NCBI RefSeq assembly: GCF_900110875.1
Contig: NZ_FOFM01000002.1
Coordinates: 682,001 to 746,000 of the forward strand
Direction of reading: 5' to 3'
DNA length: 64,000 bases
From: Pseudovibrio axinellae
GTDB taxonomy: Bacteria > Pseudomonadota > Alphaproteobacteria > Rhizobiales > Stappiaceae
In this document: positions 14,617 through 36,189 of the stretch, piece by piece
How the letters are laid out: each line of letters starts with the position of its first letter
How positions within the stretch are numbered: the stretch's first letter is position 1
Translations under genes and position numbers: made by a program
The notes under the pieces: generated by a model
Databases searched by the model: none
The model's input: the letters and a program-made list of their open reading frames with translations, nothing else
What the model was told of the DNA's origin: nothing

Positions 14617-14880
14617 ATGTCTTACTTTATAAAGCCTGCCTTCTTGATAGGGTGTTGGGCTCTTTCCTCCACAGCAGCCTTTGCGCATGCAGGCCACCTA
14701 GGTGAACTTGCAGGGCACAGCCATTGGGTTGGTGTCGCTGCTGTCGCCGGTGCTGCAATAATCGCCGGACTTGCCGCCAAAGCGAAAAAACGAGCAGCCT
14801 CCAAAGAGGACGGCACACGTGAAAGTGCGGACGGCGCAGACGTAATTTCTCCTGAAGAGCCAGAAGCAGAGCCAGTATGA
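14617..14880 (+). CDS. Small His-rich membrane-anchored protein at head of cob operon
   Basis: An 87-residue protein. It has a signal-like hydrophobic start cut or anchored near AFAHAG, a short HAGHLGELAGHSHWVG segment with four histidines, a second hydrophobic stretch (AAVAGAAIIAGLAA), then a basic patch and an acidic tail. The layout resembles small DUF6732-type proteins. It overlaps cbiX by the four bases ATGA, so the two are translationally coupled. Periplasmic histidines next to a cobaltochelatase suggest a role with cobalt or another metal; this is inference. Confidence 0.6.
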   Translation: MSYFIKPAFLIGCWALSSTAAFAHAGHLGELAGHSHWVGVAAVAGAAIIAGLAAKAKKRAASKEDGTRESADGADVISPEEPEAEPV

Positions 14881-15986: not shown

Positions 15987-15988
15987 GA

Positions 15989-21219: not shown

Positions 21220-21228
21220 GGCCACAGA

Positions 21229-22587
21229 TTAGAAAGAAGCGGACCACCAATCTTCGCTTCTTTCTGCCACCACATGAGCAAACGAGCCCATAATGCGCCC
21301 GTTGATATGCCCTAAGGGATCAAGGTCATGGTGTTCAGCGTCCTGGGCTTCAAAAAGCGAAGGAGCCTTTGATGCGCAGTGCAGAGTTGAATAGTGAAAC
21401 TCATGAGCGCCCAAAGGTTTTTGCCAAGGAAAACCGGCGTTCTTTGCAGCCTCTGTGCACCGTAATTTCCGATAGCCAAGGTGTAACTTCCGCTTTGCAA
21501 AGCTTGTGTCATGCGGCAAGAGGCCGAGCATCTCGTGGGTCTGGCCAGCTTTGTCGGTTAGAGTTTGACCAAGGGCCATGTAGCCGCCGCACTCACCATA
21601 AATCAGCTTATCTGCCTGAGTAGCTGCGATCATTCCACTCTTGAAATTGTCTGCATGAGCCAGTGTTTCAGCGTGAAGTTCAGGGTAGCCTCCGCAAAGG
21701 AAAATTGCGTCGGCGTCGCTGGATGGGCTTTCATCAGCTAGGGGAGAAAAGAACGAGAGCGTTGCCCCTTGCTTCTGCCAATTGTTGAGCAGATGCTCGT
21801 AGTTAAAAGCAAAAGCAATATCCTTTGCGATTGCCATATGCTGTCCAAGCGGTGGCAGATGAGAAATGCCGGTTAGTTTTTTGTTCTCTCTGGCAGGAAT
21901 GGCGAGTACTTTTGCAAGCCGCATGAGTACAAGCATATCAATATTTTTTGCAGCCGCTGCTCCAGCAGCAATCAAAAACGCCTCCAGGTCTTCACGCTCA
22001 CTGGCTTGTACAAGGCCCAGATGGCGCTCGGGCAAGGCAAGTGTTTCAGAGCGATAAAATGCTCCAAGCACGATCACATTCAGCTTTTCCAGCGCTTGCC
22101 GTAAAATGCGCTCATGGCGAGGCGACCCCACACGGTTGAGGATAACACCGGCGATATGGCAATGTGGTTGGTAAGTTAAAAAGCCATGTACAAGAGCAGC
22201 AACTGAGTGCGCCTGAGATTTGCAGTCAACAACCAGAATTATCGGAAGCCCAAGGTGAGTTGCAAGGTCCGCAACAGAACCAGACCCGTCAGCTGCCCCG
22301 TCAAACAATCCCATAGCACCTTCTATCACGACGACATCGGTGTGCTCTGCCTGTTCTGTGGCATTCAATGATAGCTGGGCCAAAGACATCGCCCATGCAT
22401 CATAATTGAGGCAAGGCCGTCCTGAGGCAGCCTTATGGAAAGCAGGATCAATGTAGTCAGGCCCCGACTTTCCTGAAGCTACCCGTAGTCCTGTCTCACG
22501 AAGGGCGCGCAGCAACGCTAATGTAATGGTTGTCTTACCAGACCCGGAAGACGGCGCTGCAATGACAAACCCCTTCGCAATGCTCAT
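21229..22587 (-). CDS. cobB: Cobyrinic acid a,c-diamide synthase
   Basis: A 452-residue CobB/CbiA that uses ATP and glutamine to amidate the a and c side chains. It has the N-terminal P-loop APSSGSGKTTIT, the VIEGAMGLFDG motif and a C-terminal class I glutamine amidotransferase half with the triad cysteine in IYGECGGYMALG and histidine in the closing segment. It overlaps cobA by 4 bases. This is the last corrin step visible here; cobalt-chelatase CobNST genes are absent, as expected for early cobalt insertion. Confidence 0.94.
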   Translation of the reverse strand: MSIAKGFVIAAPSSGSGKTTITLALLRALRETGLRVASGKSGPDYIDPAFHKAASGRPCLNYDAWAMSLAQLSLNATEQAEHTDVVVIEGAMGLFDGAADGSGSVADLATHLGLPIILVVDCKSQAHSVAALVHGFLTYQPHCHIAGVILNRVGSPRHERILRQALEKLNVIVLGAFYRSETLALPERHLGLVQASEREDLEAFLIAAGAAAAKNIDMLVLMRLAKVLAIPARENKKLTGISHLPPLGQHMAIAKDIAFAFNYEHLLNNWQKQGATLSFFSPLADESPSSDADAIFLCGGYPELHAETLAHADNFKSGMIAATQADKLIYGECGGYMALGQTLTDKAGQTHEMLGLLPHDTSFAKRKLHLGYRKLRCTEAAKNAGFPWQKPLGAHEFHYSTLHCASKAPSLFEAQDAEHHDLDPLGHINGRIMGSFAHVVAERSEDWWSASF

Positions 22588-23423
22588 AGGGCAGGTTCCT
22601 CTTCCATACGTGGCGCGCGGGAGGACTGTGACAAAACAGGTTCGAGCCAGTTCATTTGATCGCGCAGGCTCACCACTTCGCCAACAACAACAATCGCAGG
22701 CGGTTTGAGCCCGCTATTTGTTATATCGGCTGCGCATGAGCCAAGCGTTGTTTCCAGAACGGTTTGGTCCTGTAGCGTTGCGTTGCAAATCACAGCAGCT
22801 CGCTCGCTCGGATGGCGGCCTCCATCCATGAGCTTCTGGGAAATAAGTGAGATATGCTTCATCGCCATATACATCACGATCACAGGAGAGCCTTTTGCAA
22901 GTGCATCCCAATCAAGCTCATCAGGCGTTACGCCATTTTGGTCATGTCCGGTCAGGAACGTAACAGCTTGATTGATACCTCTATGTGTCGCGGGAATTCC
23001 AGCATAGGCCAATCCGCCGACCCCAGCCGTAACACCGGGAATAATACGGAAAGGGATACCAGCGTCGACCAGCGCAAGGGCTTCTTCGCCGCCGCGTCCA
23101 AAAACAAAGGGATCTCCACCCTTTAGTCGAAGGACACGTTTTCCTGATTTTGCCAATTGGATGAGCGTGAGTGAGATATCTGACTGCTTGGCGGAAGGCT
23201 TACCGCCACGCTTTCCTGCATATATGACTTCTGTCGTTTTATCTGCGAGTGCCAGTATACGAGCATCAACCAGTGCGTCATAGACAATGACATCTGCTTG
23301 TTTCAGGCCATTTAAGGCATGCAGGCTCAGTAAACCCGGATCACCGGGGCCAGCCCCAGCAAGCCAGACCCATCCAGCTTCCAGAGTAGGGAATTCAAAA
23401 TCGGGGAGGGAGATATCGATCAA
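22584..23423 (-). CDS. cobA: Uroporphyrinogen-III C-methyltransferase
   Basis: A 279-residue SUMT that methylates C2 and C7 of uroporphyrinogen III to give precorrin-2. Motifs are VWLAGAGPGDPGLLSLHAL, VIYAGKRGGKPSAKQ, RLKGGDPFVFGRGGEE and the TAGVGGLAYAGIPATHRG loop. It lacks the CysG-type dehydrogenase/ferrochelatase domain, so oxidation of precorrin-2 must come from another gene. It is the first gene of the cobA-cobB unit, about 107 bases from the divergent cbiD. Confidence 0.94.
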   Translation of the reverse strand: MIDISLPDFEFPTLEAGWVWLAGAGPGDPGLLSLHALNGLKQADVIVYDALVDARILALADKTTEVIYAGKRGGKPSAKQSDISLTLIQLAKSGKRVLRLKGGDPFVFGRGGEEALALVDAGIPFRIIPGVTAGVGGLAYAGIPATHRGINQAVTFLTGHDQNGVTPDELDWDALAKGSPVIVMYMAMKHISLISQKLMDGGRHPSERAAVICNATLQDQTVLETTLGSCAADITNSGLKPPAIVVVGEVVSLRDQMNWLEPVLSQSSRAPRMEEEPAL

Positions 23424-23530
23424 GCGGCTCTCGTGAGTTGGGCGGTTTTGCCTAGCAATTTAATTGGAAACCTACAGGAAGTCCAAAGTGTTCTGCTTGG
23501 TATCTTCCGCTAAATCTGTATAGTCGCCCA

Positions 23531-24643
23531 ATGGTTGAAAGTGGGCAAAAAAAATTACGAACTGGGTGGACCACTGGGGCCTGTGCAACCGCTGCAGCAA
23601 AGGCTGCATATGCGTGTTTGTTGACCGGTGAATTCCCTGACCCTGTGAGCATAACGTTGCCTCGAGGAGAGGTGCCTCTTTTCGCATTAGCCTCTGAGAA
23701 AGCAGAGGAAAAATCTGCCACAGCTGCAATCGTAAAAGATGCCGGAGATGACCCGGATGTAACACACGGCGCTCTCGTGCAGGCGAAAGTTACACTTAAT
23801 CCCGGCGCCAATAGCATCAGATTTTTGGCAGGGCCGGGTGTCGGTACAGTCACCAAACCGGGACTGCCCATTCCTGTGGGGGAACCTGCAATCAACCCTA
23901 TGCCCCGTCAGATGATTGGTGCGGAACTTCAAAAGCTTGCTGATGAAAATGGTGTGCAGCTGGCGGTCGATGTTGAGATATCCATCTCTGATGGTGAAAT
24001 GCTTGCGCAAAAAACGATGAACCCACGCCTGGGGATCATCGGTGGCCTTTCTGTTCTGGGTACGACAGGTATCGTGCGCCCGTTTTCCTGCGCGGCCTGG
24101 ATCGCCTCAATACATCGTGGTGTGGATGTGGCGCGGGCAACCGGTTTATCTCACGTTGCAGCAGCAACAGGGGCGACCTCTGAAAATGTGCTGAGGTCAT
24201 TTTACCCCGACCTGCAAGAACAAGCCTATCTCGATATGGGAGACTTCGCAGGTGGCTTGTTGAAATACCTGCGTGCGCATCCAATACCAAAGCTGACGAT
24301 CTCAGGCGGAGTTGCTAAGCTGACAAAGCTTGCACAAGGAGCGATGGACCTTCACTCCGCGCGTTCATCCGTTGACTTTGCGGCGCTTGCCCAGGTGTTA
24401 GAGCGCGCTGGCGCCTCGCCTACTTTGGTGGCAGAAACGGCGCAGGCTGAATTGGTTTCTTATGTTGCGCAACGTGCCGCTGAAGAAGACCTCCATATAG
24501 GGCAGATCATTTCGGAAGCTGCCAAAAGCGCTGCTTTGACAATTCTCCGTGGGGCGCCTGTCAGTGTGGAGGTTATTGTAACAGACCGAAAGGGGCAGGT
24601 TTTAGGGCACGCTGTTTGTGACGATAGCGCCAAACTGGAGTGA
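23531..24643 (+). CDS. cbiD: CbiD, cobalt-precorrin-5B C1-methyltransferase
   Basis: A 370-residue CbiD, the hallmark methylase of the oxygen-independent pathway (methylates C1 after ring contraction). It opens with LRTGWTTGACATAAAKAAY, followed by PRGEVPLFAL, the GPGVGTVTKPGLPIPVGEPAINP block and FAGGLLKYLRAHPI. All are typical and the length is normal. It is divergent from cobA and abuts cobK. Confidence 0.94.
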   Translation: MVESGQKKLRTGWTTGACATAAAKAAYACLLTGEFPDPVSITLPRGEVPLFALASEKAEEKSATAAIVKDAGDDPDVTHGALVQAKVTLNPGANSIRFLAGPGVGTVTKPGLPIPVGEPAINPMPRQMIGAELQKLADENGVQLAVDVEISISDGEMLAQKTMNPRLGIIGGLSVLGTTGIVRPFSCAAWIASIHRGVDVARATGLSHVAAATGATSENVLRSFYPDLQEQAYLDMGDFAGGLLKYLRAHPIPKLTISGGVAKLTKLAQGAMDLHSARSSVDFAALAQVLERAGASPTLVAETAQAELVSYVAQRAAEEDLHIGQIISEAAKSAALTILRGAPVSVEVIVTDRKGQVLGHAVCDDSAKLE

Positions 24644-24648
24644 TCGGG

Positions 24649-25404
24649 ATGTCTATAAAACTCAAGATACTTGTTCTTGCTGGTACGCGAGAAGCAAGAG
24701 AGTTGATAAAGACCCTGTCTTTAAATGCCGATTATGACGTGACCGCCTCGCTTGCTGGGGTCACCAAGAACCCACACAAACTGGCTGTAACAACCCAAAT
24801 GGGTGGGTTTGGTGGCGCTGAAGGCTTGATGCATTACCTTCAAGCTGAGGGTATTACTGCGGTTGTCGATGCCACCCATCCTTATGCCGCTCAAATTACC
24901 CAAAACGCGTGTGAAGCCACAAAGCGAGCAACTATTCCAATGTTGCGTTTTGAGCGTGCTCCGTGGAAGCGCTGCCCTGAGGACGAGTGGCACCTCGTTG
25001 ATGATCTGCACGCCGCGCTGGAATTGATTCCAGCAAGGGAAACTGTATTCTTTGCAGCAAGTTCCAAGGTCGCTGCGCCATTTATTCAGCGGCCAGACCT
25101 TACCGCAGTCATTCGCAGCTTAAACGTCCCTGAGCGCAAAGATGCCTTGCCAAACGCAGTGTATGTGGCAGGGATGCCAAGTGCGGATTGGCGCGAAGAA
25201 GTCGCGCTTTTCAAACAGTTGAACGTTGGTTGGCTTATCAGTAAAAACAGCGGAGGAAACTCATCCTACGCGAAAATCAGGGCTGCGCGTGAACTCAAAA
25301 TTCCAGTGGCGATGATACAGCGTCCCGGGAGTTATGATGGTATCAGCTGTTCTAGTGTTGAGTGTGTCCTTGAACAGCTGAAGCTCATCGAAGTTCAGGC
25401 GTAA
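24649..25404 (+). CDS. cobK: Precorrin-6A / cobalt-precorrin-6A reductase
   Basis: A 251-residue CobK/CbiJ reductase using NAD(P)H. It has an N-terminal ILVLAGTREARELIK nucleotide-binding segment, the VVDATHPYAAQITQNA motif and the C-terminal LISKNSGGNSSYAKIRAAREL motif. ATG 24649 is preferred: a GGAG lies 8 bases before it, while the in-frame GTG at 24640 overlaps the cbiD stop. It is convergent with the cytochrome b561 gene, 10 bases apart. Confidence 0.92.
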   Translation: MSIKLKILVLAGTREARELIKTLSLNADYDVTASLAGVTKNPHKLAVTTQMGGFGGAEGLMHYLQAEGITAVVDATHPYAAQITQNACEATKRATIPMLRFERAPWKRCPEDEWHLVDDLHAALELIPARETVFFAASSKVAAPFIQRPDLTAVIRSLNVPERKDALPNAVYVAGMPSADWREEVALFKQLNVGWLISKNSGGNSSYAKIRAARELKIPVAMIQRPGSYDGISCSSVECVLEQLKLIEVQA

Positions 25405-25414
25405 GTCTGGCAAA

Positions 25415-25972
25415 TTATCCTTTTGGGTTCTTGTAGGGTGCTGTCGTCATGCGTTGGATGATGCCATCTCTTGCAATGAGCCAATGATAAAGTCCCCCCA
25501 GCACATGTAAGGAAACCAGCCAGGCAAAAACGACGCCAATTGTGGCGTGGAGATCCAGGATCGCTTCCGCATTGGGGCGGTCCTTTGGAACAATGCCAGG
25601 AAGATCAAAGAGTCCGAAGAACGGGATAGGGGCTCCGTAGAGAGATAGCCCAACCCAACCGAGAATTGGATTGGCGATCAACACTAGGTAAAGCAGCCCA
25701 TGCACTGCTTTGGAAATAATGCGCAGTGCTGGCGACATTGAAGTCGGAGGGGGCGGGGCAGGCGTGACCCAATGTTGGAGGAGACGTAAAACCACGAGTA
25801 TAAAAAGAAGAATGCCAATGCTCTTGTGATAAAAGAAAAACGCATTCTGCAAAGGGCCAGACGCCAAGTCTGACATGACCAAACCCATCGGCACCATGAT
25901 GAACACCAAAATGGCAACCACCCAATGGTATGTTTTTGCCATCGCAGAATATCCGGCAACTTGGTGGCTCAT
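25415..25972 (-). CDS. Cytochrome b561 family protein
   Basis: A 185-residue di-heme inner-membrane protein with four hydrophobic helices. Histidines that can ligate heme occur in the first helix region (TYHWVVAILVF), in FFYHKSIGILLF, in VHGLLYLVLI and in LHVLGGLYHW. This is the YodB/CybB pattern; relatives move electrons between the quinone pool and periplasmic acceptors or superoxide. It starts at an ATG at 25972 and is divergent from the RibD-like gene across a palindromic site. Confidence 0.87.
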   Translation of the reverse strand: MSHQVAGYSAMAKTYHWVVAILVFIMVPMGLVMSDLASGPLQNAFFFYHKSIGILLFILVVLRLLQHWVTPAPPPPTSMSPALRIISKAVHGLLYLVLIANPILGWVGLSLYGAPIPFFGLFDLPGIVPKDRPNAEAILDLHATIGVVFAWLVSLHVLGGLYHWLIARDGIIQRMTTAPYKNPKG

Positions 25973-26023
25973 ACCCTATTCTCCCGATAATTCTGGAGCT
26001 TCTTGAACAGCCCCTGCAATCTC

Positions 26024-26043
26024 CTGATCGACAGATGGATCAG
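26024..26043. promoter_or_regulatory. Palindromic candidate operator between cytochrome b561 and RibD-like genes
   Basis: CTGATC-N8-GATCAG is a perfect 6-bp inverted repeat in the 155-base divergent promoter region. The position suits an operator for either gene. I cannot name a regulator. Confidence 0.3.
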
Positions 26044-26127
26044 GCTTCGATACCACTAGGCTAACCTTAGGAGAGGTGAGCTGTGAACTCGGTAAAACAA
26101 GGGGGCTTCATGGAAGGAGGTCAGGTG

Positions 26128-26922
26128 ATGCGAACACCTTTGCAAGACCACCCGGATGCTTCTCAGCTGACCAGTGGCTTTGTTGAGGAAGAATGGCAAG
26201 AAGTATTAGCTGCTTCCATAGACAGAAGAGCTCCGGACCTTAGGGGGTATGGCAGTGTATTTACGCCATTGTGCAAGGCGCAGAAACAGTTTGTTATCGG
26301 CCAGCTTGGGCAGTCAATCGATGGCCGCATTGCCACGCTAACTGGCGATTCCAATTACGTGAATTGTATAGAGGCACTCGTTCACCTCCATCGGCTGCGG
26401 GCGCTTTGTGATGCTGTAGTTGTTGGAGTTGGCACCGCAGTAGCTGATAACCCTAAGCTTACAGTTAGGCATGTAAGTGGTAGTAATCCTGCGCGGATTG
26501 TTATTGACCCTTATGGCCGAATGCCAGCTAAGAGCACATTACTGCAGGATGTAAGTGCCCGTCGTATCGTGATCACACGCACTGATGCGAACGTAAGCTA
26601 CCCTGACGGTGTGGAGTGCCTGCAGATAAAGCCTGATGCAAACGGAAGGTTGTGCTGTACCGAAATCCGCAAAGTTCTCCGGGAGTTTCGCTGTATTCTC
26701 ATCGAAGGCGGCGCTTGGACACTGTCCCGCTTTATCGAGCTGAATATGATTGACCGCCTCCATATTATGCTTGCTCCCCTGATCATAGGCTCGGGCCCGC
26801 GCGGCATGCAACTTCCTGCGATCGATTACCTTTCGCAGGCAATAAGGCCTGGTGTTGCCTGGTACCCGCTGGGAACAGATATGCTAGCCGACTTGAGTTT
26901 GTCCGACACAACCCCAAGGTGA
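26128..26922 (+). CDS. Stand-alone RibD C-terminal-type pyrimidine reductase (DHFR-like fold)
   Basis: A 264-residue protein. After about 50 unassigned residues it is a single RibD_C domain: FVIGQLGQSIDGRIAT, DAVVVGVGTAVADNPKLTVR, ARIVIDPYGRMP, CILIEGGAWTLSRFIE and LAPLIIGSGPRGM are all family motifs. RibD_C reduces the ribose of an aminopyrimidine with NADPH. No deaminase domain is present, so this is not a full riboflavin RibD. ATG 26128 has an excellent AAGGAGGT site; GTG 26083, also preceded by a good site, would add 15 residues. It may serve the pterin-like locus downstream (inference). Confidence 0.83.
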   Translation: MRTPLQDHPDASQLTSGFVEEEWQEVLAASIDRRAPDLRGYGSVFTPLCKAQKQFVIGQLGQSIDGRIATLTGDSNYVNCIEALVHLHRLRALCDAVVVGVGTAVADNPKLTVRHVSGSNPARIVIDPYGRMPAKSTLLQDVSARRIVITRTDANVSYPDGVECLQIKPDANGRLCCTEIRKVLREFRCILIEGGAWTLSRFIELNMIDRLHIMLAPLIIGSGPRGMQLPAIDYLSQAIRPGVAWYPLGTDMLADLSLSDTTPR

Positions 26923-27009
26923 TGATACCTTAAATACGCCCAAAAGCGCTTCCTAACATGAGAGAAAGCTCCTATAAACCTGCGTGAATTCCCTCAAAGG
27001 ATACAACGC

Positions 27010-27588
27010 ATGCCAGAGCTCATCAGACGAACCTCCCTTTTTGAGTCCAAAGGACGGATTGAGGACGTGGAAGTGCGTGTCGTCCATGAGGATGGCCGCG
27101 AGCACATCACAACCGATCCTGTTTGGGTTTATGGCGATTCTATTGCGGTTTTGGCGTATGACCCACAAGCCAAAACTGTACTGTTGGTCAAACAACTTCG
27201 TGTAGCTCCATATATTATGGAGGAGATTGTTATTCTGGAAGCGTGTGCTGGTGGTATTGAAGCTAGTGACCCATCCATCGAAGACGCTTGTAAACGTGAA
27301 GCGCAAGAAGAATTGGGTTGCGAGCTGAGAAACCTGCGCAAAGTGGCAAATGTCTTCATCAACCCCGCGCGCTTGGCTGAAAGAGCACACCTTTTTCTAG
27401 CTGAGTTCACGTCAGCTGCTCTGAACATCGAAGGGCGCAACCAGGATGAAGACGAAGATATTGAGGTCGTCGAGCTGTCCTTTAAGGAGCTGTGTGCTCT
27501 GCACGCTGCGCAAGAAATCCGGTGTCCGCGTCTATTGATGCTGACACAAGCACTCATGATAGAAAAGGCCAGCCATCAACTCGCTTAA
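27010..27588 (+). CDS. Nudix hydrolase, ADP-ribose/nucleoside-diphosphate-sugar type
   Basis: A 192-residue Nudix protein like NudF/NudK. The catalytic core CKREAQEELGC of the Nudix box (about residues 96-108) is intact, but the leading Glu of GX5EX7REUXEEXGU is Pro (SDPSIEDAC). Upstream are the AVLAYDPQAKTVLLVKQLR strand and the VILEACAGGIE loop. It probably hydrolyses ADP-ribose or a sugar nucleotide. It sits between the RibD-like gene and the glycosyltransferase operon, which uses sugar nucleotides. Confidence 0.85.
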   Translation: MPELIRRTSLFESKGRIEDVEVRVVHEDGREHITTDPVWVYGDSIAVLAYDPQAKTVLLVKQLRVAPYIMEEIVILEACAGGIEASDPSIEDACKREAQEELGCELRNLRKVANVFINPARLAERAHLFLAEFTSAALNIEGRNQDEDEDIEVVELSFKELCALHAAQEIRCPRLLMLTQALMIEKASHQLA

Positions 27589-27688
27589 GAAGGACCAGTG
27601 CCCTTTTTGAGCCTGTGTGATAGGCGCTCTGAGACCCGTCTCTATCAAACATCTAGTTCAAGTTTTCAGTGCAAATGCTGCGCCCTAT

Positions 27689-28510
27689 TTAACCCGGAGG
27701 CAGGCCAACAAGGTCAACGTGCCCGACTTGCAGCTGTGATGTTCCCATGCCAACGGCTCTGAGCCGATACTCAAGCCAGTCATCAACGACCATGTCAGAC
27801 ACCCCAATCTCCCGTGCTGCTTGCGCCCAACCTTTGATCAACTCAAGCTGCAGAGTTTTGTCTTCAGGGGTACAGACCCAATCAGATCGACCCTTGAAGC
27901 AGGTATAACCAGCCTTTAACAGACGCTCATGGGCGTGAAACCCTCCAAGCGGCCCCAAAGCAGACCCAAACCCTTTGTCAGTTGCCTGGTGCTGATTAAA
28001 CGCTCTTTGGATCAGACGATCTGCGGGGTGGTGAGGCTGGCTTAAAAGCACTCCATTGTAAGAAAGCCCAGCAAGGAAAGGGAGTTTGAGCTGTTGCAAT
28101 TTGGCAATCAGACTATCCAGCCAATAAGCACTTACCAGATCCAGAAAAGCAGATGTAACAACCCCATGTTGTCCCTCCAAAATATCGAGCGCATTGGTAT
28201 GCGTCAGCTCGCAAATATCTGTTCTCTTTTGGGTTTGCGGGAACGGAGGTGGCGTTTCTTCTGCAACCTTTAAAAGAGCCGGGTTATTATCAACCAGGAG
28301 CCATGCCTGCTCTCGATTGGGGCCAATATGCACCGCCAGATCATGCAGGAAAGGGCCTGTCCCAGCCGCCATGTCAATTAATTTGAGCGGCCCATCCTTC
28401 GGCGCATGTTCGACCAGCCAGTTGCAAAATTTCTTCATTATGACTTTGTTACGCGCCCGCCGGTCAGCTTTGCGACGTAGTGAGAGCCATTGGGTGGAGA
28501 ATTCATTCAA
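27689..28510 (-). CDS. Class I SAM-dependent methyltransferase
   Basis: A 273-residue protein with a Rossmann methyltransferase core: LKLIDMAAGTGPFLHDLA is motif I (about residues 42-59), AWLLVDNNPALLK is the acidic-loop strand, and VVTSAFLDLVSAYWLDSL is motif IV-like. The substrate is not evident. It overlaps the glycosyltransferase upstream by 4 bases and closes a four-gene operon with it, the PTPS-like protein and the MDR dehydrogenase. A small-molecule substrate made by those genes is the likely target. Confidence 0.78.
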   Translation of the reverse strand: MNEFSTQWLSLRRKADRRARNKVIMKKFCNWLVEHAPKDGPLKLIDMAAGTGPFLHDLAVHIGPNREQAWLLVDNNPALLKVAEETPPPFPQTQKRTDICELTHTNALDILEGQHGVVTSAFLDLVSAYWLDSLIAKLQQLKLPFLAGLSYNGVLLSQPHHPADRLIQRAFNQHQATDKGFGSALGPLGGFHAHERLLKAGYTCFKGRSDWVCTPEDKTLQLELIKGWAQAAREIGVSDMVVDDWLEYRLRAVGMGTSQLQVGHVDLVGLPPG

Positions 28511-29616
28511 AGGTGACCCTCCAGTACAACGGCAAATGCTTTTGCGCTGTCACTCCAGCTCGGTAGAGCCCGGGCCGCAAAACGAGACCCCTCTGAAAGC
28601 TGGTTGCGCAATTCATCATTTCTCAGCAAAACCTCGATGGAGTCACCAAGAGCTGTTGCATCACCAGCAGCAACATGAAAGCCAGCACTGGGTGGCACTG
28701 TGGAAGTAACCGCGCCTGCTCCACTCGCGATAATGGGCAACCCAAAACTCATCGCCTCGGCAAAGGCCATCCCGTACCCCTCATAATAAGTGGGAAGCAC
28801 AAACAGGTCCGCAGATTGATAAAAACGCATCAAGCCAGCTTGAGAAACGTTGCCATGAATGTGAATGCGATCTGCCAAATCATAGCGTTTAATCTGGTTG
28901 CGCACCTGGCGCGTATATTGCGGATTAAAGGATGTCTCGCCGATCAGGTCTAAATGCCAGTTCAAGTGTTTTAGCCGTCCCAAAGCCTCAACAAGGTGCA
29001 GCTGCCCCTTACGTGGCACCAGTGAGCCAACGCACAACAATTGTAGTGCTGAGCCTGCTTCTCGTTTTGACGATAACTGGTCAACCTCAGGAGCTTGGGC
29101 GATACCAGGAAGGACGATGCTGACCTTTCCTGGTGGAACACTCATCTGAGAAACAAGGGTTTTTCGCGTAGACGGGCTCGTTACAATCACACGTTCAGCA
29201 TAAGTCAGTGCTTTCGTTTCTGACTGCTTCAAGGCGCTGGCCAGCTTTGGCTCCATACCGCTTTCCAAAAAGAGTGGATGGTGAACGAGTGCAATCAATA
29301 TGGCTCGGTTAGAGATATCTTTTGCAAGATCAGGTGAAGCACCCAAAGCAAGGCCATCCACAACCACCAAAGCTGGCGCTTCTATCCCTCCCAGAGCCTC
29401 GATCGCTGCTCCTCGATCGCTGCTTGAAGGGGTTGGATAGTTCCCCGCAAGGCTGATAAGTGAAACGTCCCACTCATTCTTCTGCAGCCCTTGGACAATT
29501 GAATGGTCATAGCGATAACCGCCCGTTGGCGTGTTCAGGTCACCGGGAAATACAAAGTAACAGGCCTTTGAAACATCTGCCGCGATCTGACTGGGGAATG
29601 GATGTAAATCACTCAT
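28507..29616 (-). CDS. Glycosyltransferase family 4 (GT-B fold)
   Basis: A 369-residue retaining glycosyltransferase. Its C-terminal donor domain has LLCVGSLVPRKGQLHLVEAL, the GNVSQAGLMRFYQSADLFVLPTYYEGYGMAFAEAMSFG block with the E-x7-E motif, and PIIASGAGAV. ATG 29616 overlaps the end of the PTPS-like gene, which sets the start; an upstream in-frame start at 29661 would only extend into that gene. It should add a sugar to the product of the neighbouring enzymes. There are no polysaccharide export or assembly genes around, so a small glycoside fits better than a polymer. Confidence 0.85.
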   Translation of the reverse strand: MSDLHPFPSQIAADVSKACYFVFPGDLNTPTGGYRYDHSIVQGLQKNEWDVSLISLAGNYPTPSSSDRGAAIEALGGIEAPALVVVDGLALGASPDLAKDISNRAILIALVHHPLFLESGMEPKLASALKQSETKALTYAERVIVTSPSTRKTLVSQMSVPPGKVSIVLPGIAQAPEVDQLSSKREAGSALQLLCVGSLVPRKGQLHLVEALGRLKHLNWHLDLIGETSFNPQYTRQVRNQIKRYDLADRIHIHGNVSQAGLMRFYQSADLFVLPTYYEGYGMAFAEAMSFGLPIIASGAGAVTSTVPPSAGFHVAAGDATALGDSIEVLLRNDELRNQLSEGSRFAARALPSWSDSAKAFAVVLEGHL

Positions 29617-30028
29617 GAGCCAGAGCCGCGGTAAGAGGGGCCTCATAAGATGCGCGGGCATCTGGGTTCTCGGCGATAGTCACGCGCACTTTGCTCAGTT
29701 CGCTGGGCTCACGGCCTAACTTGTGCAAGTAGGCAGCGTCGCTTACGCGCTGGTAGATATAACTACAAAGAAAGTCGACAGTGGTGTTTCGCCCTTTGAA
29801 CTGAGGAAGTTCATCAAGGTTCTTGTAGTTGAAAGGGCGCAGGATCTCTTCCAAAACCGCAAGCGCGTTGCCAATGTCAATGACTATACCGTTTTCGTCC
29901 AGCTCTTCGGCGAAAATGGCAACATGAACATGTGCTGTTAGGCCATGGAGCTGCGAGGCAGGCCCAAAAACCTCCCCTTTCAAGCTGTGTGCAATCATAA
30001 TATGATCGTTGATCTCAACAGAATACAT
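29609..30028 (-). CDS. PTPS/QueD-fold protein with degenerate active site
   Basis: A 139-residue T-fold protein of the 6-pyruvoyl-tetrahydropterin synthase/QueD family. It aligns without gaps around the active site, yet key residues differ. Of the three Zn histidines, His14 and His28 remain but the third is Leu30 (LHGL for LHGH). The catalytic Cys is Ala24, and the Asp-His pair of LDHKNLD is Asn-Tyr (FNYKNLD). Glu120, which anchors the pterin, is kept (IAENPD). It should still bind a pterin or pyrimidine but is unlikely to perform QueD chemistry. It lies in the middle of the MDR-PTPS-GT4-methyltransferase operon. Confidence 0.8.
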   Translation of the reverse strand: MYSVEINDHIMIAHSLKGEVFGPASQLHGLTAHVHVAIFAEELDENGIVIDIGNALAVLEEILRPFNYKNLDELPQFKGRNTTVDFLCSYIYQRVSDAAYLHKLGREPSELSKVRVTIAENPDARASYEAPLTAALAHE

Positions 30029-30046
30029 CTCAAAACCCCTATAAAA

Positions 30047-31024
30047 TCACGAGTAAACAATGGGTTGGAAAACGGTATCCTTCTTGCCGGAGAAAACACC
30101 TGGCAGGTCTTCTGGAGTGCTTTCGAACTGAATAGGTGGCGCAAGCAAAGCTTCCAGAACATCGTCCTCCAATAGCGAGATTGCAGCCTCCATGCGTCGC
30201 CGGTGGGACCACCTTGGTCTCATTGCAGGGGCAACCTGCCCAACCTGTGAGGAGATAAGGTTGAGGCGTTGACTGTGAAATCCCCCACCAAGAACAAGGT
30301 TGGAGTGTTGCGAGCCATACCAGGATGCTTCGATGATTTTTGCTTCGCTCCCCGCAATACGGATGGCTGTGTTCAAACCGGTGTCAGATGCGCTGCAATG
30401 AATGACCACGTCTTGATTTTCCGGTGCAGCGTCTGGCGTGGCAAATTCACAAGAGAACTCATCTGCAATGTCCTGTCGGCGTTCGTTGACGTCGATCAGG
30501 GTAATGTGCACACCAGCTATGTGTCTGCAAATATAGCCAACAAGTGCACCAAGCGTACCTACACCAACCACAGAAACATGAGAGCAGGGGAGTATCGAGG
30601 CGTCCCAAGTTATGTTCAGTGCAGTTTCCATGTTGGCGGCAAGCGTTGCACGGATACTAGGTAAACTCTCCGGAATAGGATAAAGCGCGCTAGCCGGAAG
30701 CAGGAATGCGCTTTGGTGAGGAAACAACGAAAAAACGCGCTGCCCCGCTGGCAGTTCGCCAGCAGGCTCAATCACTTCTGCAACATTTGCATATCCGTAT
30801 TTGACCGGGAATGGAAAGGACCCTACCTGAAATGGAGCGGTCATCCGCTCTCGCTCACTGATAGGTACACCCCCATGAAAAACGATAGCTTCCGTGCCTC
30901 TGCTTACCGCAGAAGCATGGGTTTTTAAGTAAATACGGTTACCATATGATTTAGAGAGCCTTTCCTCTCTTATTTCAATGGTTTGAGGCGCAGTATACCA
31001 AAGCGCTCTGGCTATCTCAGACAA
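30047..31024 (-). CDS. Zinc-less MDR-family dehydrogenase (BchC/Tdh-like)
   Basis: A 325-residue medium-chain dehydrogenase/reductase. The nucleotide-binding VVGVGTLGALVGYICRH motif (GxGxxG) with an acidic end at TLIDVNE points to NAD(H). The catalytic zinc residues are missing: the usual Cys is Ser in HASAVSRGTEAIVF, and the GHE motif is KYGYAN. The structural zinc lobe is absent too. This pattern is like BchC. It is the first gene of the operon, 18 bases before the PTPS-like gene, and diverges from opgH. The likely job is oxidation or reduction of a side chain on the pathway product. Confidence 0.78.
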   Translation of the reverse strand: MSEIARALWYTAPQTIEIREERLSKSYGNRIYLKTHASAVSRGTEAIVFHGGVPISERERMTAPFQVGSFPFPVKYGYANVAEVIEPAGELPAGQRVFSLFPHQSAFLLPASALYPIPESLPSIRATLAANMETALNITWDASILPCSHVSVVGVGTLGALVGYICRHIAGVHITLIDVNERRQDIADEFSCEFATPDAAPENQDVVIHCSASDTGLNTAIRIAGSEAKIIEASWYGSQHSNLVLGGGFHSQRLNLISSQVGQVAPAMRPRWSHRRRMEAAISLLEDDVLEALLAPPIQFESTPEDLPGVFSGKKDTVFQPIVYS

Positions 31025-31138
31025 GAAACGCGCTCCCCGGCTCGCTTAGTTTTCACAAATATACTCTAGGGAAACGTGAACAAAGGAAACTAGCAAAAAT
31101 GTAGGTGCTTCCAGAAACAATAACATTTTGGGTAGGAC

Positions 31139-33013
31139 ATGACAGAACAATCCCCGGCCCCTCACGAGGTGGCCAGCAAACGTCTTGTTGACCAGTTGCT
31201 CTCGGCCCATATCGTCGAAAAACATCAGGAAAATAAGCGCTTATATCGGCGACGGTTAGTCTTTGGAGGTCTTGTGTTTACCTCGATCTCAGGGCTTATT
31301 GGCCTGATGGTTTTGACGTTGTTCACCAGCGGTTTTACCATTGCAAAAATTGTGATGCTTCTTGCTTTTCTGGTAACCTTACCTTGGCTTGTTATTGGAT
31401 TTTGGCATGCTGTTATTGGCCTGCTACTGCTCAGGTTCTCACATGACCCGACCAGAAAAGTTTATGCGCTCAACTCACCAGATTACTTTGACCATGAGAA
31501 ACCGCTTAAGAATAAGCAAACTGCATTGCTATCCTGCATACGTAACGAAGATTCTCTTCAAGTAGCAGCAAAACTGGAAGCGATGCTTCAGGACTTGAAG
31601 CGAGGAAATAAACTTGGTGGTTTTTCTCTGTACGTTTTGAGTGACAGCGATACCACAGAGCATATCACGCAGGAGATACGTGAGTTCTCACTTTTGCGTG
31701 GGCGCTGGCAAAACCAAATAGATGTGTTCTATCGCAGGCGAGAGCTGAATACGGGTTATAAAGCAGGCAATATTGCAGACTTTTGCCGCAACTGGGGCGC
31801 GCACCATGATTATGCAGTCACTCTGGATGCGGACAGCTTCCTTTCTGCAAAAGCGCTTTGCGACCTTGTGAGCAAAATGAACGCATCTCCTCGCCTCGGG
31901 ATTTTGCAAACATTGGTGCTTGGCCTCTCAACCAGCTCCTTCTTCACCCGAGTATTCCAATGGGGCATGCGCTTGGGCATGCGTTCTTTCACCTTGGGTG
32001 CTGCTTGGTGGCAGGGGCCTTCAGGTCCATATTGGGGGCACAATGCAATTTTTAGAATAAAGCCATTCATACAGTATTGTATGCATGATCCCTTGCCTGG
32101 AAGCGGTGCATTGAGCGGCCCGGTTTTAAGTCATGATCAAGTTGAAGCAGCGCTCATGGTGAGTGCGGGCTATGAGGTTCGCGTATGGCCGGTAGAGGGA
32201 GGAAGCTACGAAGAAAACCCTCCCCATCTGATTGAGTTTATTCGAAGAGATTTGCGCTGGTGCCATGGCAACCTACAGTATCTCAAACTCCTGCGCGCTC
32301 CGGGTTTCAAAATGTTGGGTCGTATCCAGCTTACGTTGGCGATCCTGATGTTTATCGGCTCCCCAGCCTGGCTGATTTTCATAGCAACAGCGATGTATCT
32401 CACCTCGACAGCAGCACCAGGAACGTCGTCGTTTGACCCATTTTATGGGACCCTTCTTATCCTCATTCTTATGAGTATGGTTTTTGCTCCCAAGCTGGTG
32501 ACGCTTGCTCATGTTCTGACAGTTCCCAAGGAAACCAGAGAATACGGCGGGGGCCTTTTGATATCAGTTAGCGCCTTGCTTGAGCTTGTGTTTTCGATGT
32601 TGCTTGCGCCAGTTATGGCAATTGCTCATAGCATATTCATCGTGCAGCTCTTTGCGGGTAAAAAAACAAAGTGGGACGGTCAGGCAAGGCAGCCGACAGG
32701 CATTCCTGTGCTTCTTTCGATAAAGAAGTTCTGGCCTCAGACGGTGTTTGGTCTGTGCGGTATTGCTTGGATGACGAGCTTTTCTTTCTCTGAGACCTGG
32801 CTTCTGCTTCCGGTTATTATTGGTCCGTTGCTGGCAGTTCCATTTGCGATGATCACATCAAAACCAGCTCCTGGGCTGTACTTCAAACATTCCGGCCTTT
32901 GGGCATTACCTGAAGAAAAGAAAGCCCCTCTTGAGCTACTGGAGCTTGATAAGGAGCACCGCAAAATTGAAATTGGCCTTACAAAGGAAGACAAGGCGGC
33001 TGCCATTCGGTGA
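31139..33013 (+). CDS. opgH: OpgH, periplasmic glucan glucosyltransferase
   Basis: A 624-residue inner-membrane GT2 enzyme that polymerises glucose from UDP-glucose into osmoregulated periplasmic glucans. Two hydrophobic segments lie at about 40-100 and several more in the C-terminal third. Catalytic motifs between them are SDSD (168-171), the DAD of VTLDADS (230-232), the HDQVEAA region (332-338) and RRDLRW (369-374), a Q/RxxRW equivalent. It is shorter than E. coli OpgH (about 850), lacking some N-terminal sequence. No opgG is adjacent; opgC follows on the other strand. Confidence 0.92.
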   Translation: MTEQSPAPHEVASKRLVDQLLSAHIVEKHQENKRLYRRRLVFGGLVFTSISGLIGLMVLTLFTSGFTIAKIVMLLAFLVTLPWLVIGFWHAVIGLLLLRFSHDPTRKVYALNSPDYFDHEKPLKNKQTALLSCIRNEDSLQVAAKLEAMLQDLKRGNKLGGFSLYVLSDSDTTEHITQEIREFSLLRGRWQNQIDVFYRRRELNTGYKAGNIADFCRNWGAHHDYAVTLDADSFLSAKALCDLVSKMNASPRLGILQTLVLGLSTSSFFTRVFQWGMRLGMRSFTLGAAWWQGPSGPYWGHNAIFRIKPFIQYCMHDPLPGSGALSGPVLSHDQVEAALMVSAGYEVRVWPVEGGSYEENPPHLIEFIRRDLRWCHGNLQYLKLLRAPGFKMLGRIQLTLAILMFIGSPAWLIFIATAMYLTSTAAPGTSSFDPFYGTLLILILMSMVFAPKLVTLAHVLTVPKETREYGGGLLISVSALLELVFSMLLAPVMAIAHSIFIVQLFAGKKTKWDGQARQPTGIPVLLSIKKFWPQTVFGLCGIAWMTSFSFSETWLLLPVIIGPLLAVPFAMITSKPAPGLYFKHSGLWALPEEKKAPLELLELDKEHRKIEIGLTKEDKAAAIR

Positions 33014-33033
33014 CGCTTAAGGGTACCGCTAAC

Positions 33034-33080
33034 AAAAAAGCAGATTGTGCGGCGAGGTCGGGCACAATCTGCTTCTTATT
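33034..33080. terminator. Bidirectional intrinsic terminator between opgH and opgC
   Basis: A perfect 12-bp stem, AGCAGATTGTGC (33039-33050) with GCACAATCTGCT (33062-33073), has an 11-base loop. It is flanked by AAAAAA on the left and TCTTATT on the right, so it works in both directions for the two convergent genes. Confidence 0.85.
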
Positions 33081-33100
33081 GCATTAATGGAACCAGCTAG

Positions 33101-34252
33101 TTAGGAGCCCGGGGTTTCTTTTGGTTTTCTCCAGGGCTCACCTTTGAACCAGCCAACTGCGTAGGCGACAGCAATGAGACCTGCAAAACCAAGAAGGTTT
33201 GCCATTACCCCACCAGAAAATGTTCCCTTTAAGCCCAGTTCATCGCGAAGGACTGCAAGGCCCTGAGCAAGAATAAGGCTGGCTAGGAAGACAGCAAGCG
33301 ATTGCTGGCCGACCCTCTTGATCACACGAACGACCTTTCCGCCAAAGCCTTCCATTAGCAGCCGACCTCCGCCTTGGCCCACCGCAACCCAGGCAACATA
33401 CGCCAATGCAAGAAAGTGGATATATCGCAGGAGACCCATTTCGGTTTTAACGGTGAGAAAGCGGATATCTCCGGCGATCTTTCTCAGCTCAGGCACCTCA
33501 TTGAGGATGCGGAAATAGGCAAATGGGATGGTTAGAATGATGATAGCTGTGCTTACAAACAGCAGTCGTTTCTTGACAGGAGGAGCAGGTATCCAGCCTT
33601 TGATGAACGCAAAGCCGGTGAAAAACAGCAGCTGCCACGCAAATGGGTTAAAGAACCAGCGGCGGTCAGACCAAGGTTCGGCAGGGAAGTCGACAAACCG
33701 GAATGTTGCCAACAACCAGAAAGTGGCAACGAGAGCCGCGACAGCACCACGGCCGATCTTATAGTAGGCGACCATGACCAAGGGCAGCATCGCTAGGATG
33801 ACGAGATACATCGGCAAAATGTCGAAGTAATTTGGAACATAAGTCAACGTCAACAAGGCAGGCAATTGAAAAATCGGATCTTCAAAAAAGTGCCAAAGGT
33901 TGAGCTTGCCCACGTAATCATCACTGGATAATCCGTTGATTTGTAAGAATGCCAACATGCCAGCAACGGCAAAGAACAGGCATATATGGGCCCAGTATAC
34001 TTGCCAGACGCGATATAAGACGCGGGCACTTCCCATGGCCAGGCCATGAAGTTCGAAGACGCGACCGAATGCGATCGCTGAGGCCATGCCTGAGCAAAAC
34101 ACAAAAATCTCGGTTGCATCGGAAAATCCGAAGCGTGCAGGAATCCACAATGCCCACCCGTTTGCTGGCAGGTGGGCTATGAAGATTATAAACATTGCGA
34201 TGCCTCGGAAAAAATCGAGGCGAGGATCTCTTGTTCGGCTTGCCGTTTTCAT
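33101..34252 (-). CDS. opgC: OpgC-like glucan succinyl/acyltransferase
   Basis: Polytopic membrane protein of about 383 residues with some ten hydrophobic segments. The opening RDPRLDFFRGIAMFIIFIAHLP with GFSDATEIFVFCSGM is the OpgC signature. OpgC decorates periplasmic glucans with succinyl groups, making them anionic; the adjacent opgH supports this. The start is uncertain: ATG 34252 has no clear ribosome site, and TTG 34300 or GTG 34282 would add 16 or 10 residues. Confidence 0.88.
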   Translation of the reverse strand: MKTASRTRDPRLDFFRGIAMFIIFIAHLPANGWALWIPARFGFSDATEIFVFCSGMASAIAFGRVFELHGLAMGSARVLYRVWQVYWAHICLFFAVAGMLAFLQINGLSSDDYVGKLNLWHFFEDPIFQLPALLTLTYVPNYFDILPMYLVILAMLPLVMVAYYKIGRGAVAALVATFWLLATFRFVDFPAEPWSDRRWFFNPFAWQLLFFTGFAFIKGWIPAPPVKKRLLFVSTAIIILTIPFAYFRILNEVPELRKIAGDIRFLTVKTEMGLLRYIHFLALAYVAWVAVGQGGGRLLMEGFGGKVVRVIKRVGQQSLAVFLASLILAQGLAVLRDELGLKGTFSGGVMANLLGFAGLIAVAYAVGWFKGEPWRKPKETPGS

Positions 34253-34351
34253 AGGAGTCGGCGGTATGTTGTGTTTGTTCACGGTTACTCTGAAATTCAA
34301 ATTATAAGAGGTAAGGCGCAGCCTCGAAATCCCCCGAAGCTACACCTCTAT

Positions 34352-35737
34352 TTATCCTATGCGAAAACGTAGGTGTTCGCTTTGCATAAGGTCGGTGGCT
34401 GCCATCATGCGTTTTGCCTGAGCCATTCGGGTTTCCCCATAAGTGTCAGAACCACCTCTTAAACGTGAGCGCTCGTCGATCATGCGTTTTGCTTCCTGAC
34501 AAAGGCCAGCACGCAAAGCCGCTTCAATTGTAATACGTTCAAATACATCCCGCTGGGCATGGCTGCCGCCAACGGTACGCAACAAAGGACGAGCCTCAGC
34601 TAAGTGGTGGTAAGCACTAAAGAAATTTCCATTTTTAAACTGCATCAGACCCGACGCGGTGGGCGAACCTGTAGTTTTTGTAATCTGGGACATCTCACTA
34701 CTGTCCTCTTCGCCAAAGGCCCGCATGCGGGAGAGGAGGTGATCAGAAGCTTGACGGCGATTGTCGCCCAGCAGAGCGAGCATGTAATGTAAGTCGGCAA
34801 AAACATTGCAGGAATCGTCTATGTGTTTTTCGCTGTTTATCGCCAGTTCTTCCCAACGCTGACCAACTTTGATGCCTTCAAGCTCGAGCCGTACCAGCAT
34901 CGATGCTGCATTCGAGATATCGCGATAATCATCAGTGTGATCCTTGCGGAACTTCTGGTCGTAGAGCTCAAGGACGCGTTCGATATTCCCGCGATCCAGG
35001 TGCAAGAGAGCTAGGTGCCACCAAACATGGTAGCCAAAATTGTTACAATGTTCCCAAGCTTGTGGTCGATCATCGAGCCACTTGATACCTTCTTCGCTCT
35101 TGCCAGTCATGTCCAGCACATGGGCAACAGCATGAAGACCCCAAGCATCGTCATGTTGAATTTCAACGGCATTTCTGCCTACACGCTCGGCTTTTTCAAA
35201 ATCACCACTCTCTTCAAGGGAAAAGGCATAGCAACCAAGGACGTAGCCCTTGGCGACATGCTCATCCTCATAAGCAGAGATTACACCTTCAATGGAAGAG
35301 CGCATGCGGGACGGTTGGCCAAGAACGAAGCGGATCGCATGGACCAGCTTCATGATGAGCGCATCACGAGGGTACTTCAAAAGCACCTCGTCCAAACGTT
35401 CTGCAGCTTTGCTGAGAGAGCCATGGAGCCAGTCATTGAGGGCATCAACTACAGCGTGCTCCCGGTCTGTAACTTGCGTATCGCGGCGGCATTGATCAGC
35501 AATTGCGTAGGCTTCAAACGCAGTTGCAGTCATTTCACGTCTGCCAAGTAAAAGGCAGAACAAACCACGAGTTGCCTGTGCCATGGCAAAATCTGGGTCG
35601 GCCTCGAGCGTCTGCGCAAGGCATTCTGGTGTTGCAGCACTATGGGCAAGAAATGCAAGAGCTGTTTTATTCCAGTGAGTTAATGCACTCTTGTTTGAGA
35701 GTGTTACCGAGTATTCAAACTGGTCATCAATGCGCAT
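34352..35737 (-). CDS. TTC38-like tetratricopeptide repeat protein
   Basis: A 461-residue all-helical protein without signal peptide or membrane segment, made of degenerate TPR pairs across its length (such as FEAYAIADQCRRDTQVTDREHAVVDAL and GLHAVAHVLDMTGKSEEGIKWL). The HAVAHVLDM motif and the WHLALLHLDRGN segment are characteristic of the TTC38 group, found from bacteria to humans and of unknown function. There are no clear operon partners. Confidence 0.75.
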   Translation of the reverse strand: MRIDDQFEYSVTLSNKSALTHWNKTALAFLAHSAATPECLAQTLEADPDFAMAQATRGLFCLLLGRREMTATAFEAYAIADQCRRDTQVTDREHAVVDALNDWLHGSLSKAAERLDEVLLKYPRDALIMKLVHAIRFVLGQPSRMRSSIEGVISAYEDEHVAKGYVLGCYAFSLEESGDFEKAERVGRNAVEIQHDDAWGLHAVAHVLDMTGKSEEGIKWLDDRPQAWEHCNNFGYHVWWHLALLHLDRGNIERVLELYDQKFRKDHTDDYRDISNAASMLVRLELEGIKVGQRWEELAINSEKHIDDSCNVFADLHYMLALLGDNRRQASDHLLSRMRAFGEEDSSEMSQITKTTGSPTASGLMQFKNGNFFSAYHHLAEARPLLRTVGGSHAQRDVFERITIEAALRAGLCQEAKRMIDERSRLRGGSDTYGETRMAQAKRMMAATDLMQSEHLRFRIG

Positions 35738-36189
35738 GGATGCGACCCGTGGTTAGGGCGACTTATGAGCCGTGCAATGTGAGAGTGCTTAAAGTGGAGA
35801 AACACTGGTTTCACATTGGTAACGCCCCAAGTCTGCCAGGAAGTCTGTTGAACAGAACCCTTTCAAAACTGGCGATGACGTTCAACACACAAAAAGGTGT
35901 TTAATATCAACTAGCTTTGTTTATGTAGAAAATATATTTCAACCTCATGAATAAATGGAAAACATCATTCTATCCGTAAGTAAAAAATATACGAGACGTT
36001 GAATTTTACCTATGAAATATTACTATTATCAAAAGTTACGGTAAGTTTGTCCTTAGGTTTTTTATTCGCAGTGTCCATTCAAATATTTATTTTATCGTCA
36101 TCAATAGCTTTCACTGCTTGTTGATTTTCTTTTTAGCTTCTTTTGTGCAATCTCGCTAAGCTAAAAGAAACCAAGTGCGTGGCGAATTC
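35738..36189. other. AT-rich intergenic region without recognisable genes
   Basis: About 450 bases between the divergent TPR gene and YeeE/TsuA-like gene. From about 35890 onward it is clearly AT-richer than its surroundings. It must hold both promoters. I find no reading frame with a ribosome site, no strong hairpin and no RNA gene. Confidence 0.6.

Follow-up and report, generated by a model that had tools for sequence, protein, structure and literature searches.

A conserved four-gene operon around a PTPS-IV-type protein in Pseudovibrio axinellae: possible core of a GTP-derived pathway

Four genes on the minus strand of Pseudovibrio axinellae contig NZ_FOFM01000002.1 specify, in order, a dehydrogenase of the medium-chain dehydrogenase/reductase (MDR) superfamily, a T-fold protein of the 6-pyruvoyltetrahydropterin synthase (PTPS) family, a glycosyltransferase of family GT4 and an S-adenosylmethionine (SAM)-dependent methyltransferase. 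They lie within a stretch of 64,000 nucleotides (positions 682,001 to 746,000 of the contig), all of which was analysed and which is called the window below. The four genes form a real operon that is under purifying selection, and they belong to a widespread, partly recognised orphan cluster. On balance, we favour a dedicated GTP-derived pathway that branches off riboflavin synthesis, has this operon as its core and would yield a glycosylated and methylated pyrimidine or pterin.

The four open reading frames (ORFs) are open and on the minus strand, as a preliminary description of the window had claimed (Table 1). The MDR and PTPS genes are separated by 18 bp, the PTPS and GT4 genes overlap by 8 bp and the GT4 and methyltransferase genes by 4 bp; a longer GT4 ORF, with an ATG start at 29661, is likewise open. 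These spacings and overlaps, together with the co-conservation of the genes (see below), strongly support the proposal that they constitute one operon. Selection was estimated within the genus from 9-10 sequences per gene, more than 60% identical to that of the window, using pairs with a synonymous divergence (dS) of 0.05-2. The median pairwise ratio of nonsynonymous to synonymous divergence (dN/dS) was 0.014 for PTPS (22 pairs), 0.08 for MDR (38 pairs) and 0.118 for GT4 (13 pairs), so that PTPS shows the strongest constraint among these three genes.

Orthologs of the MDR gene are found in 36 of 289 alphaproteobacterial genomes at E<1e-40 (next match 1.8e-8). A search with a profile of 29 PTPS sequences (alignment A1) at the same threshold also returned 36 genomes, about one in eight of those sampled (next match 6.1e-8). 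The two sets are identical: 36 genomes have both genes and 253 have neither. Were the genes distributed independently, such identity would arise with a probability of about 1e-46, a figure uncorrected for kinship and obtained with a profile built largely from loci found through MDR. In 34 of these genomes MDR is succeeded by an adjacent PTPS gene on its own strand; the exceptions have the two genes on separate contigs (G035) or on opposite strands (G233).

Gene neighbourhoods were counted in the 92 of 123 loci that extend at least 6 kb on each side of PTPS; locus L070 has no PTPS. The loci from genome contigs are the best 80 of at least 587 matching stretches in a scan of one genome per species, where two patterns can match one gene, and the sample is therefore biased towards relatives of the window. 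In 81 of the 92 loci, the complete four-gene core falls within 8 kb of PTPS. Over all gathered loci, MDR lies upstream of PTPS and in the same orientation in 115 of 116, and GT4 downstream, likewise co-oriented, in 113 of the 115 where it was found; the methyltransferase gene is downstream in this orientation in 97 of the 104 where it was found, and upstream on the opposite strand in the other 7. Conservation of the four-gene order across Alphaproteobacteria had been put forward as a check on the operon; the matching MDR and PTPS sets and the loci that keep the core together strongly support co-conservation of the genes.

The gene set spreads wider than the Alphaproteobacteria, being present in Beta- and Gammaproteobacteria, in Actinomycetota and in contigs labelled as other phyla; among the labels on the best 80 stretches are those of Alpha-, Beta- and Gammaproteobacteria as well as Planctomycetota, Gemmatimonadetes and Marinimicrobia. 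Plasmids contribute as well: 23 plasmid records have a PTPS match, and six of the eight that were opened carry MDR, PTPS, GT4 and methyltransferase genes in order (Methylosinus, Thiodictyon, Rhizobium, Agrobacterium, Streptomyces fungicidicus and Microbacterium). The Methylosinus in question is M. trichosporium OB3b, whose plasmid pOB3b1 bears the set. GT4 is displaced in a Palleronia plasmid record. PTPS without MDR is found at loci L041 and L162; the former, on a Streptomyces anthocyanicus plasmid, also lacks GT4 and methyltransferase genes and places PTPS beside MEKHLA-domain and cupin genes, possibly a different use of the fold. Within the genus, 15 of 16 genomes have a PTPS match, with all four genes together in 3.4-kb loci, and one lacks a PTPS of this type (PTPS-IV; see below).

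The PTPS protein of the window matches PF01242 (E = 4.6e-22) and the A1 profile (E = 1.1e-55), of which it is itself one of the 29 rows; it is 36-53% identical to the other 28. Canonical PTPS enzymes hold zinc through histidines, rely on a cysteine and an Asp-His pair for catalysis and anchor the substrate with a C-terminal glutamate. Compared with the genome's own QueD, the window protein has lost the second histidine of the HGH motif (HGL, with HGA in relatives), while alanine takes the place of the cysteine and Asn-Tyr that of the Asp-His pair. The anchoring glutamate is invariant in 29 of 29 A1 rows. Neither the CxxxHGH motif of QueD (PTPS-I) nor the CxxxxxHGH motif of PTPS-II is present in the window protein, which reads AxxxHGL. 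FGPAQ combined with HGA characterizes 118 of 123 cluster PTPS proteins; the window has FGPAS. HGL accompanied by FGPAS or FGPAE occurs in ten genomes of the genus, that of the window included, the other nine proteins (L203-L210 and L212) being 88-91% identical to the window's. To judge from these sequences, FGPAS or FGPAE with HGL appears to be a fixed clade variant under strong constraint. The sole solved PTPS relative at E<=0.001 is SCO6650 of Streptomyces coelicolor (3D7J; E = 1.1e-28, 103 bits over 131 residues), a structure that reportedly lacks zinc and the catalytic triad. Proteins with the FGPAQ motif have been named PTPS-IV (COG0720 / IPR007115; 561 sequences) and assigned PF00925 and PF01872 neighbours (PMC5445326); the passages of that paper on PTPS-IV name no product.

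The MDR and methyltransferase proteins of the window have no Pfam match at 0.001. Their NCBIfam matches, all below cut-off, are to BchC and threonine dehydrogenase for MDR and to UbiE for the methyltransferase. The AlphaFold model of the former is a confident MDR fold (mean predicted local distance difference test score [pLDDT] 94.7; best PDB match 4ejm, E = 9.3e-20), and that of the latter a class I SAM methyltransferase fold (pLDDT 97.0). The best PDB matches to this second model come from SAM methyltransferases, with E values as low as 7.4e-11; among the 50 listed, a few are cyclopropane synthases, which share the fold. In a Rhizobium relative, the methyltransferase exceeds a Pfam cut-off and MDR resembles ADH_zinc_N below cut-off. 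The characterization of the MDR enzyme as zinc-less is upheld by a 41-row alignment (A2): no cysteine, the residue that serves as zinc ligand in zinc-dependent MDR alcohol dehydrogenases, falls in its invariant or nearly invariant columns. The GT4 protein matches PF00534 (Glycos_transf_1; E = 1.4e-32), and the E.{7}E motif is found in 107 of 115 cluster GT4 sequences. The rows of A1, A2 and a 40-row methyltransferase alignment (A3) were picked by hand from longer lists.

The conserved set is larger than the operon. Within 8 kb of PTPS, the 92 loci encode a RibD C-terminal reductase (RibD_C) in 63 cases, an MdoH-like GT2 glycosyltransferase in 54, GTP cyclohydrolase II (GCHII, encoded by ribA) in 43, cytochrome b561 in 35, an FkbM methyltransferase in 27, a CDP-alcohol phosphatidyltransferase in 19, a sulfatase-type protein in 11 and a creatininase in 10, the last count missing the annotated creatininase of locus L036. 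The CDP-alcohol transferase is found in none of the 54 loci with GT2 and in 19 of the 38 without it (Fisher p = 1.5e-9, related loci counted separately); the two membrane enzymes are mutually exclusive in the sample. A strict pattern recognized the CDP-alcohol transferase motif in 16 of 24 hits, a looser one in all 24. In the window, the RibD_C gene lies 0.8 kb past the end of the operon. The earlier remark that no queuosine, folate or biopterin gene is nearby is correct as worded but passes over this riboflavin-type gene, which belongs to the conserved set.

The window RibD_C protein has PF01872 as its sole Pfam match (E = 1.1e-30) and no deaminase domain. Its nearest solved relatives, 2AZN first and then 6P8C, are stand-alone reductases of 219 and 249 amino acids. 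PF00925 has a single match in this genome, located on a different contig. Among 50 cluster RibA hits, 48 have the GCHII zinc motif and 44 a long N-terminal part; the profile of these proteins aligns, over most of its length, with the RibB-type protein of the window's own genome. The RibB signature, NEGD, is present in a single row (L060, a distant truncated hit), and both cluster RibA proteins that were scanned gave no match to PF00926, so those loci are evidently not built to supply the four-carbon unit of riboflavin. A riboflavin operon would have a RibB domain and a RibD deaminase domain in the cluster, which is not what these RibA hits and the window RibD_C show. The residue corresponding to E. 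coli Tyr105 is Tyr in 46 of the 50 RibA rows and Met in one (S. fungicidicus), three being unreadable; in work on SCO6655, Met at this GCHII position reportedly marks formation of the formyl product. At the S. fungicidicus locus, the Met-type GCHII is paired with a creatininase-family gene, whose protein has MftE as its best NCBIfam match and also matches ArfB (E = 3e-9), all below cut-off. In Sinorhizobium meliloti, the enzyme that deformylates AFRPP, BrbF, is annotated as a creatininase (PMC9478397). The window's genome has a creatininase-family gene.

Some observations concern riboflavin synthesis in the genus itself. The only GCHII match of the window's genome (L080, contig C53:752481-752945) is fused to an intact-looking RibB. 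PF00925 has a single match in 10 of 16 genus genomes, and a match with the zinc motif was read in 3 of the 16, besides a few weaker matches without a locus. By PF00925 and the zinc motif, the first step of riboflavin synthesis in the genus looks to have no assigned enzyme.

In the pathway that we favour, GTP cyclohydrolase II, with or without a deformylase of the BrbF/ArfB type, would convert GTP to 2,5-diamino-6-ribosylamino-4(3H)-pyrimidinone 5'-phosphate. The cyclohydrolase is cluster-encoded in many relatives and would come from elsewhere in the window's genome. The stand-alone RibD_C would then yield the ribityl form, without the deamination needed for riboflavin, and we infer that these two compounds are where the pathway starts. 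PTPS-IV would bind the ribityl compound and remodel it, most likely by ring closure or side-chain rearrangement, using the retained glutamate to grip the 2-amino-4-oxo edge of a pyrimidine or pterin, the zinc, Cys and Asp-His chemistry being presumably gone. The MDR enzyme would contribute an NAD(P)-dependent redox step, the methyltransferase a methyl group and GT4 a sugar. A membrane step, catalysed by either the MdoH-like GT2 or a CDP-alcohol phosphotransferase, would follow and suggests that the product is exported or linked to the envelope. The glycosylated and methylated product derived from a pterin or pyrimidine, as first proposed, is still the best product class, but the cluster has more than four genes and its GCHII/RibD_C chemistry would not be that of a folate-type pterin. 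A more specific version of this pathway, which we rate as rather unlikely, envisages a new class of redox or signalling molecule associated with the envelope. This would be a ribityl-pterin or ribityl-pyrimidine bearing sugar and methyl groups, which GT2 or the CDP-alcohol phosphotransferase, as interchangeable enzymes, would attach to the membrane or pass across it, with cytochrome b561 as its redox partner and PTPS-IV as a metal-free T-fold enzyme with new chemistry.

Several points weigh against a pathway of this kind. No RibA is encoded within 8 kb of PTPS in 49 of the 92 loci, and no RibD_C in 29. The NCBIfam matches of the window RibD_C are all below cut-off, with the generic RibD C-terminal model scoring above the archaeal reductase model. 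By PF00925, the window's genome has no intact GCHII: its single match keeps the RibB motif and lacks the GCHII zinc cysteines. The idea that a creatininase neighbour marks a Met-type, formyl-producing GCHII held for S. fungicidicus and was abandoned, the residue being Tyr in the other eight of eight creatininase rows. GT4 glycosyltransferases and SAM methyltransferases are generic and their substrate could be a glycan. Finally, related loci were counted separately and are not independent.

The possibility of a glycan deserves the most attention among the alternatives, unlikely as we consider it. In such an envelope glycan operon, GT4, the methyltransferase and GT2 would build or decorate a periplasmic or surface glycan, while PTPS and MDR would act on a sugar or moonlight, with no pterin involved. 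Its neighbours would be at home in such a system (MdoH-like GT2, OpgC, FkbM methyltransferase, CDP-alcohol transferase, LPG_synthase_TM and sulfatase-type proteins), and GT4 and the methyltransferase are steadier members of the cluster than RibA or RibD_C. However, a glycan alone would leave PTPS, RibD_C and RibA unexplained. PTPS is inseparable from MDR, RibD_C and RibA recur in 63 and 43 of the 92 loci, and among the three genes with dN/dS estimates PTPS is under the tightest constraint. Moreover, the genome has a separate MdoG/MdoH locus. The window GT2 is a paralog, about 30% identical, of the other MdoH of the genome, which lies beside MdoG on contig C52; as this is the genome's only MdoG match, the adjoining MdoG of an osmoregulated periplasmic glucan locus is not found in the window.

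An auxiliary or regulatory side branch of riboflavin synthesis, providing a second supply of ribityl pyrimidine for flavins, with GT4 and the methyltransferase producing a modified flavin, has still poorer prospects. RibA and RibD_C in the cluster would be accounted for, and the entry into riboflavin synthesis in Alphaproteobacteria is described as unusual in a part of PMC9478397. Yet the window RibD_C is devoid of a deaminase domain, the RibB signature is all but missing from the cluster RibA proteins (one of 50 rows), and no lumazine or riboflavin synthase was recognized among representatives of seven neighbour families (two without a Pfam match), no search having been aimed at these enzymes. 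Participation in F420 synthesis is very improbable: a single sentence in PMC5041015 ascribes such a role to PTPS-IV from unpublished work, and CofH is encoded in the window's genome, but CofH over cut-off is found in 44 of the 289 genomes, that is, in 8 of 36 with PTPS-IV and 36 of 253 without it (Fisher p = 0.22). The CofH match of the window's genome, over cut-off and with a weaker match next to it (contig C53:142656-144928), suggests F420 synthesis in this organism. Least credible of all is a role in queuosine or tetrahydrobiopterin synthesis, with PTPS as a divergent QueD or PTPS-II: membership in PF01242 and the automatic annotation of relatives as '6-carboxytetrahydropterin synthase' speak for it, but the protein has HGL instead of HGH and no cysteine at the catalytic place, and the genome has both a QueD over cut-off, flanked by QueC and QueE, and a further PTPS, of the CxxxxxHGH type, beside a short-chain dehydrogenase/reductase (SDR) gene. 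Roles as QueD, as PTPS-II or in F420 synthesis were rejected on these grounds, namely the missing motifs, the other PTPS genes of the genome and the lack of co-occurrence with CofH. This CxxxxxHGH-type PTPS belongs to a different pterin-plus-glycosyltransferase set of the window's genome (contig C68, L077:9058-11271), where SDR, CxxxxxHGH-type PTPS and GT4 genes lie head to tail, resembling a glycosylated-biopterin cassette.

Table 1. Features of the operon and its surroundings (window coordinates)
Feature	Position	Strand	Basis and remarks
MDR-superfamily dehydrogenase, zinc-less; operon gene 1	30047-31024	minus	TTG start; ORF, orthologs, fold model
PTPS-IV-type T-fold protein, altered zinc site and catalytic residues; FGPAS/HGL variant of FGPAQ/HGA	29609-30028	minus	PF01242
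GT4-family glycosyltransferase	28507-29616	minus	PF00534
Class I SAM-dependent methyltransferase, unnamed family	27689-28510	minus	TTG start; fold model, PDB folds
Stand-alone RibD C-terminal reductase (RibD_C), without deaminase domain; conserved cluster member	26083-26922	plus	PF01872
Cytochrome b561, frequent cluster neighbour	25415-25972	minus	PF01292; 35/92 loci
MdoH-like membrane GT2, divergent from operon	31139-33013	plus	NCBIfam MdoH models; 54/92 loci
Divergent intergenic region, 114 bp; presumed promoter region for operon and GT2	31025-31138	.	Sequence

The intergenic region between the operon and the GT2 gene is presumed to hold their promoters from its position, since a promoter scan found 4 sites against 2.5 +/- 1.5 in shuffled sequences, and promoter and terminator scans altogether rose little above shuffles. 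An Rfam search of positions 24000-37000 gave no match at gathering scores. Other neighbours were considered as cluster members and set aside: the NUDIX gene at 27010-27588, whose sole hidden Markov model (HMM) match is the window itself, and the genes for OpgC and for the TPR protein at 33101-35737, with only 5 and 4 HMM matches, respectively, window included. A first set of loci yielded 13 ORF clusters that recur in 4 loci or more; the two without a label lie, to judge by their coordinates, opposite the PTPS and GT4 genes. In a second set, seven unlabelled families recurred in 6-23 loci. Judged from one representative of each, two have no Pfam match and the other five are an aminotransferase, a fumarase-type lyase, a response regulator, a YfhO-type protein and an ABC exporter-type protein, the last in 23 loci at scattered distances. 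All seven were judged to lie outside the cluster. Distances from PTPS are fairly constant, at about 4-6 kb, for three of them: the YfhO-type membrane protein (L069:2032-4428 and relatives) is some 5-6 kb off in 8 loci, and the families with no Pfam match recur at about 4 kb, one in 10 loci and the other in 8. In the window, ORF translations at 14877-25404 have the appearance of cobalamin-type genes (CbiD-like, precorrin methyltransferases and CobK-like), which reach up to the cluster.

The operon had been called a candidate undescribed one. Literature searches found no description of the complete cluster or of its product, but some of its parts are in print: PTPS-IV with PF00925 and PF01872 neighbours was published in 2017 (PMC5445326, in its treatment of the family), and the 3D7J structure has been solved. 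Annotated relatives bear the name of a queuosine enzyme, 6-carboxytetrahydropterin synthase. If the proposed pathway is correct, a widespread metabolite and the reaction of a metal-free T-fold enzyme lack an assignment and are masked by this annotation, and the tight four-gene core makes the question testable.

Comparison with known systems places the cluster as follows. Like the PTPS-IV loci in the relevant part of PMC5445326, the window has a PF01872 neighbour and its relatives a PF00925 neighbour; in contrast, the window and its nine genus relatives carry FGPAS or FGPAE and HGL rather than FGPAQ and HGA. The MDR-PTPS-GT4-methyltransferase core and the alternation of GT2 and CDP-alcohol enzymes are not mentioned in that part of the paper. 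SCO6650 is listed in the PDB only as an uncharacterized protein. On the S. fungicidicus plasmid, the related locus keeps all four genes in order and adds those for GCHII and creatininase. The early steps of riboflavin synthesis of the archaeal or BrbF type (GTP cyclohydrolase, ArfB/BrbF deformylase and reductase) employ the same enzyme families and would share the same intermediates. The cluster differs from them in that the window reductase has no deaminase domain, the RibB signature has been lost from the cluster RibA, and PTPS-IV, MDR, GT4 and the methyltransferase have been added. Pathways for biopterin glycosides use GTP cyclohydrolase I, a catalytic PTPS-II and sepiapterin reductase. As in the case of the Chlorobium pteridine glycosyltransferase and of cyanopterin, where a 'GT-1- and AviGT-4-like' pteridine glycosyltransferase exists according to a part of PMC5683033, a glycosyltransferase would act on a pterin; here, however, it is associated with GCHII and RibD_C and with a PTPS protein that has exchanged the usual catalytic residues.

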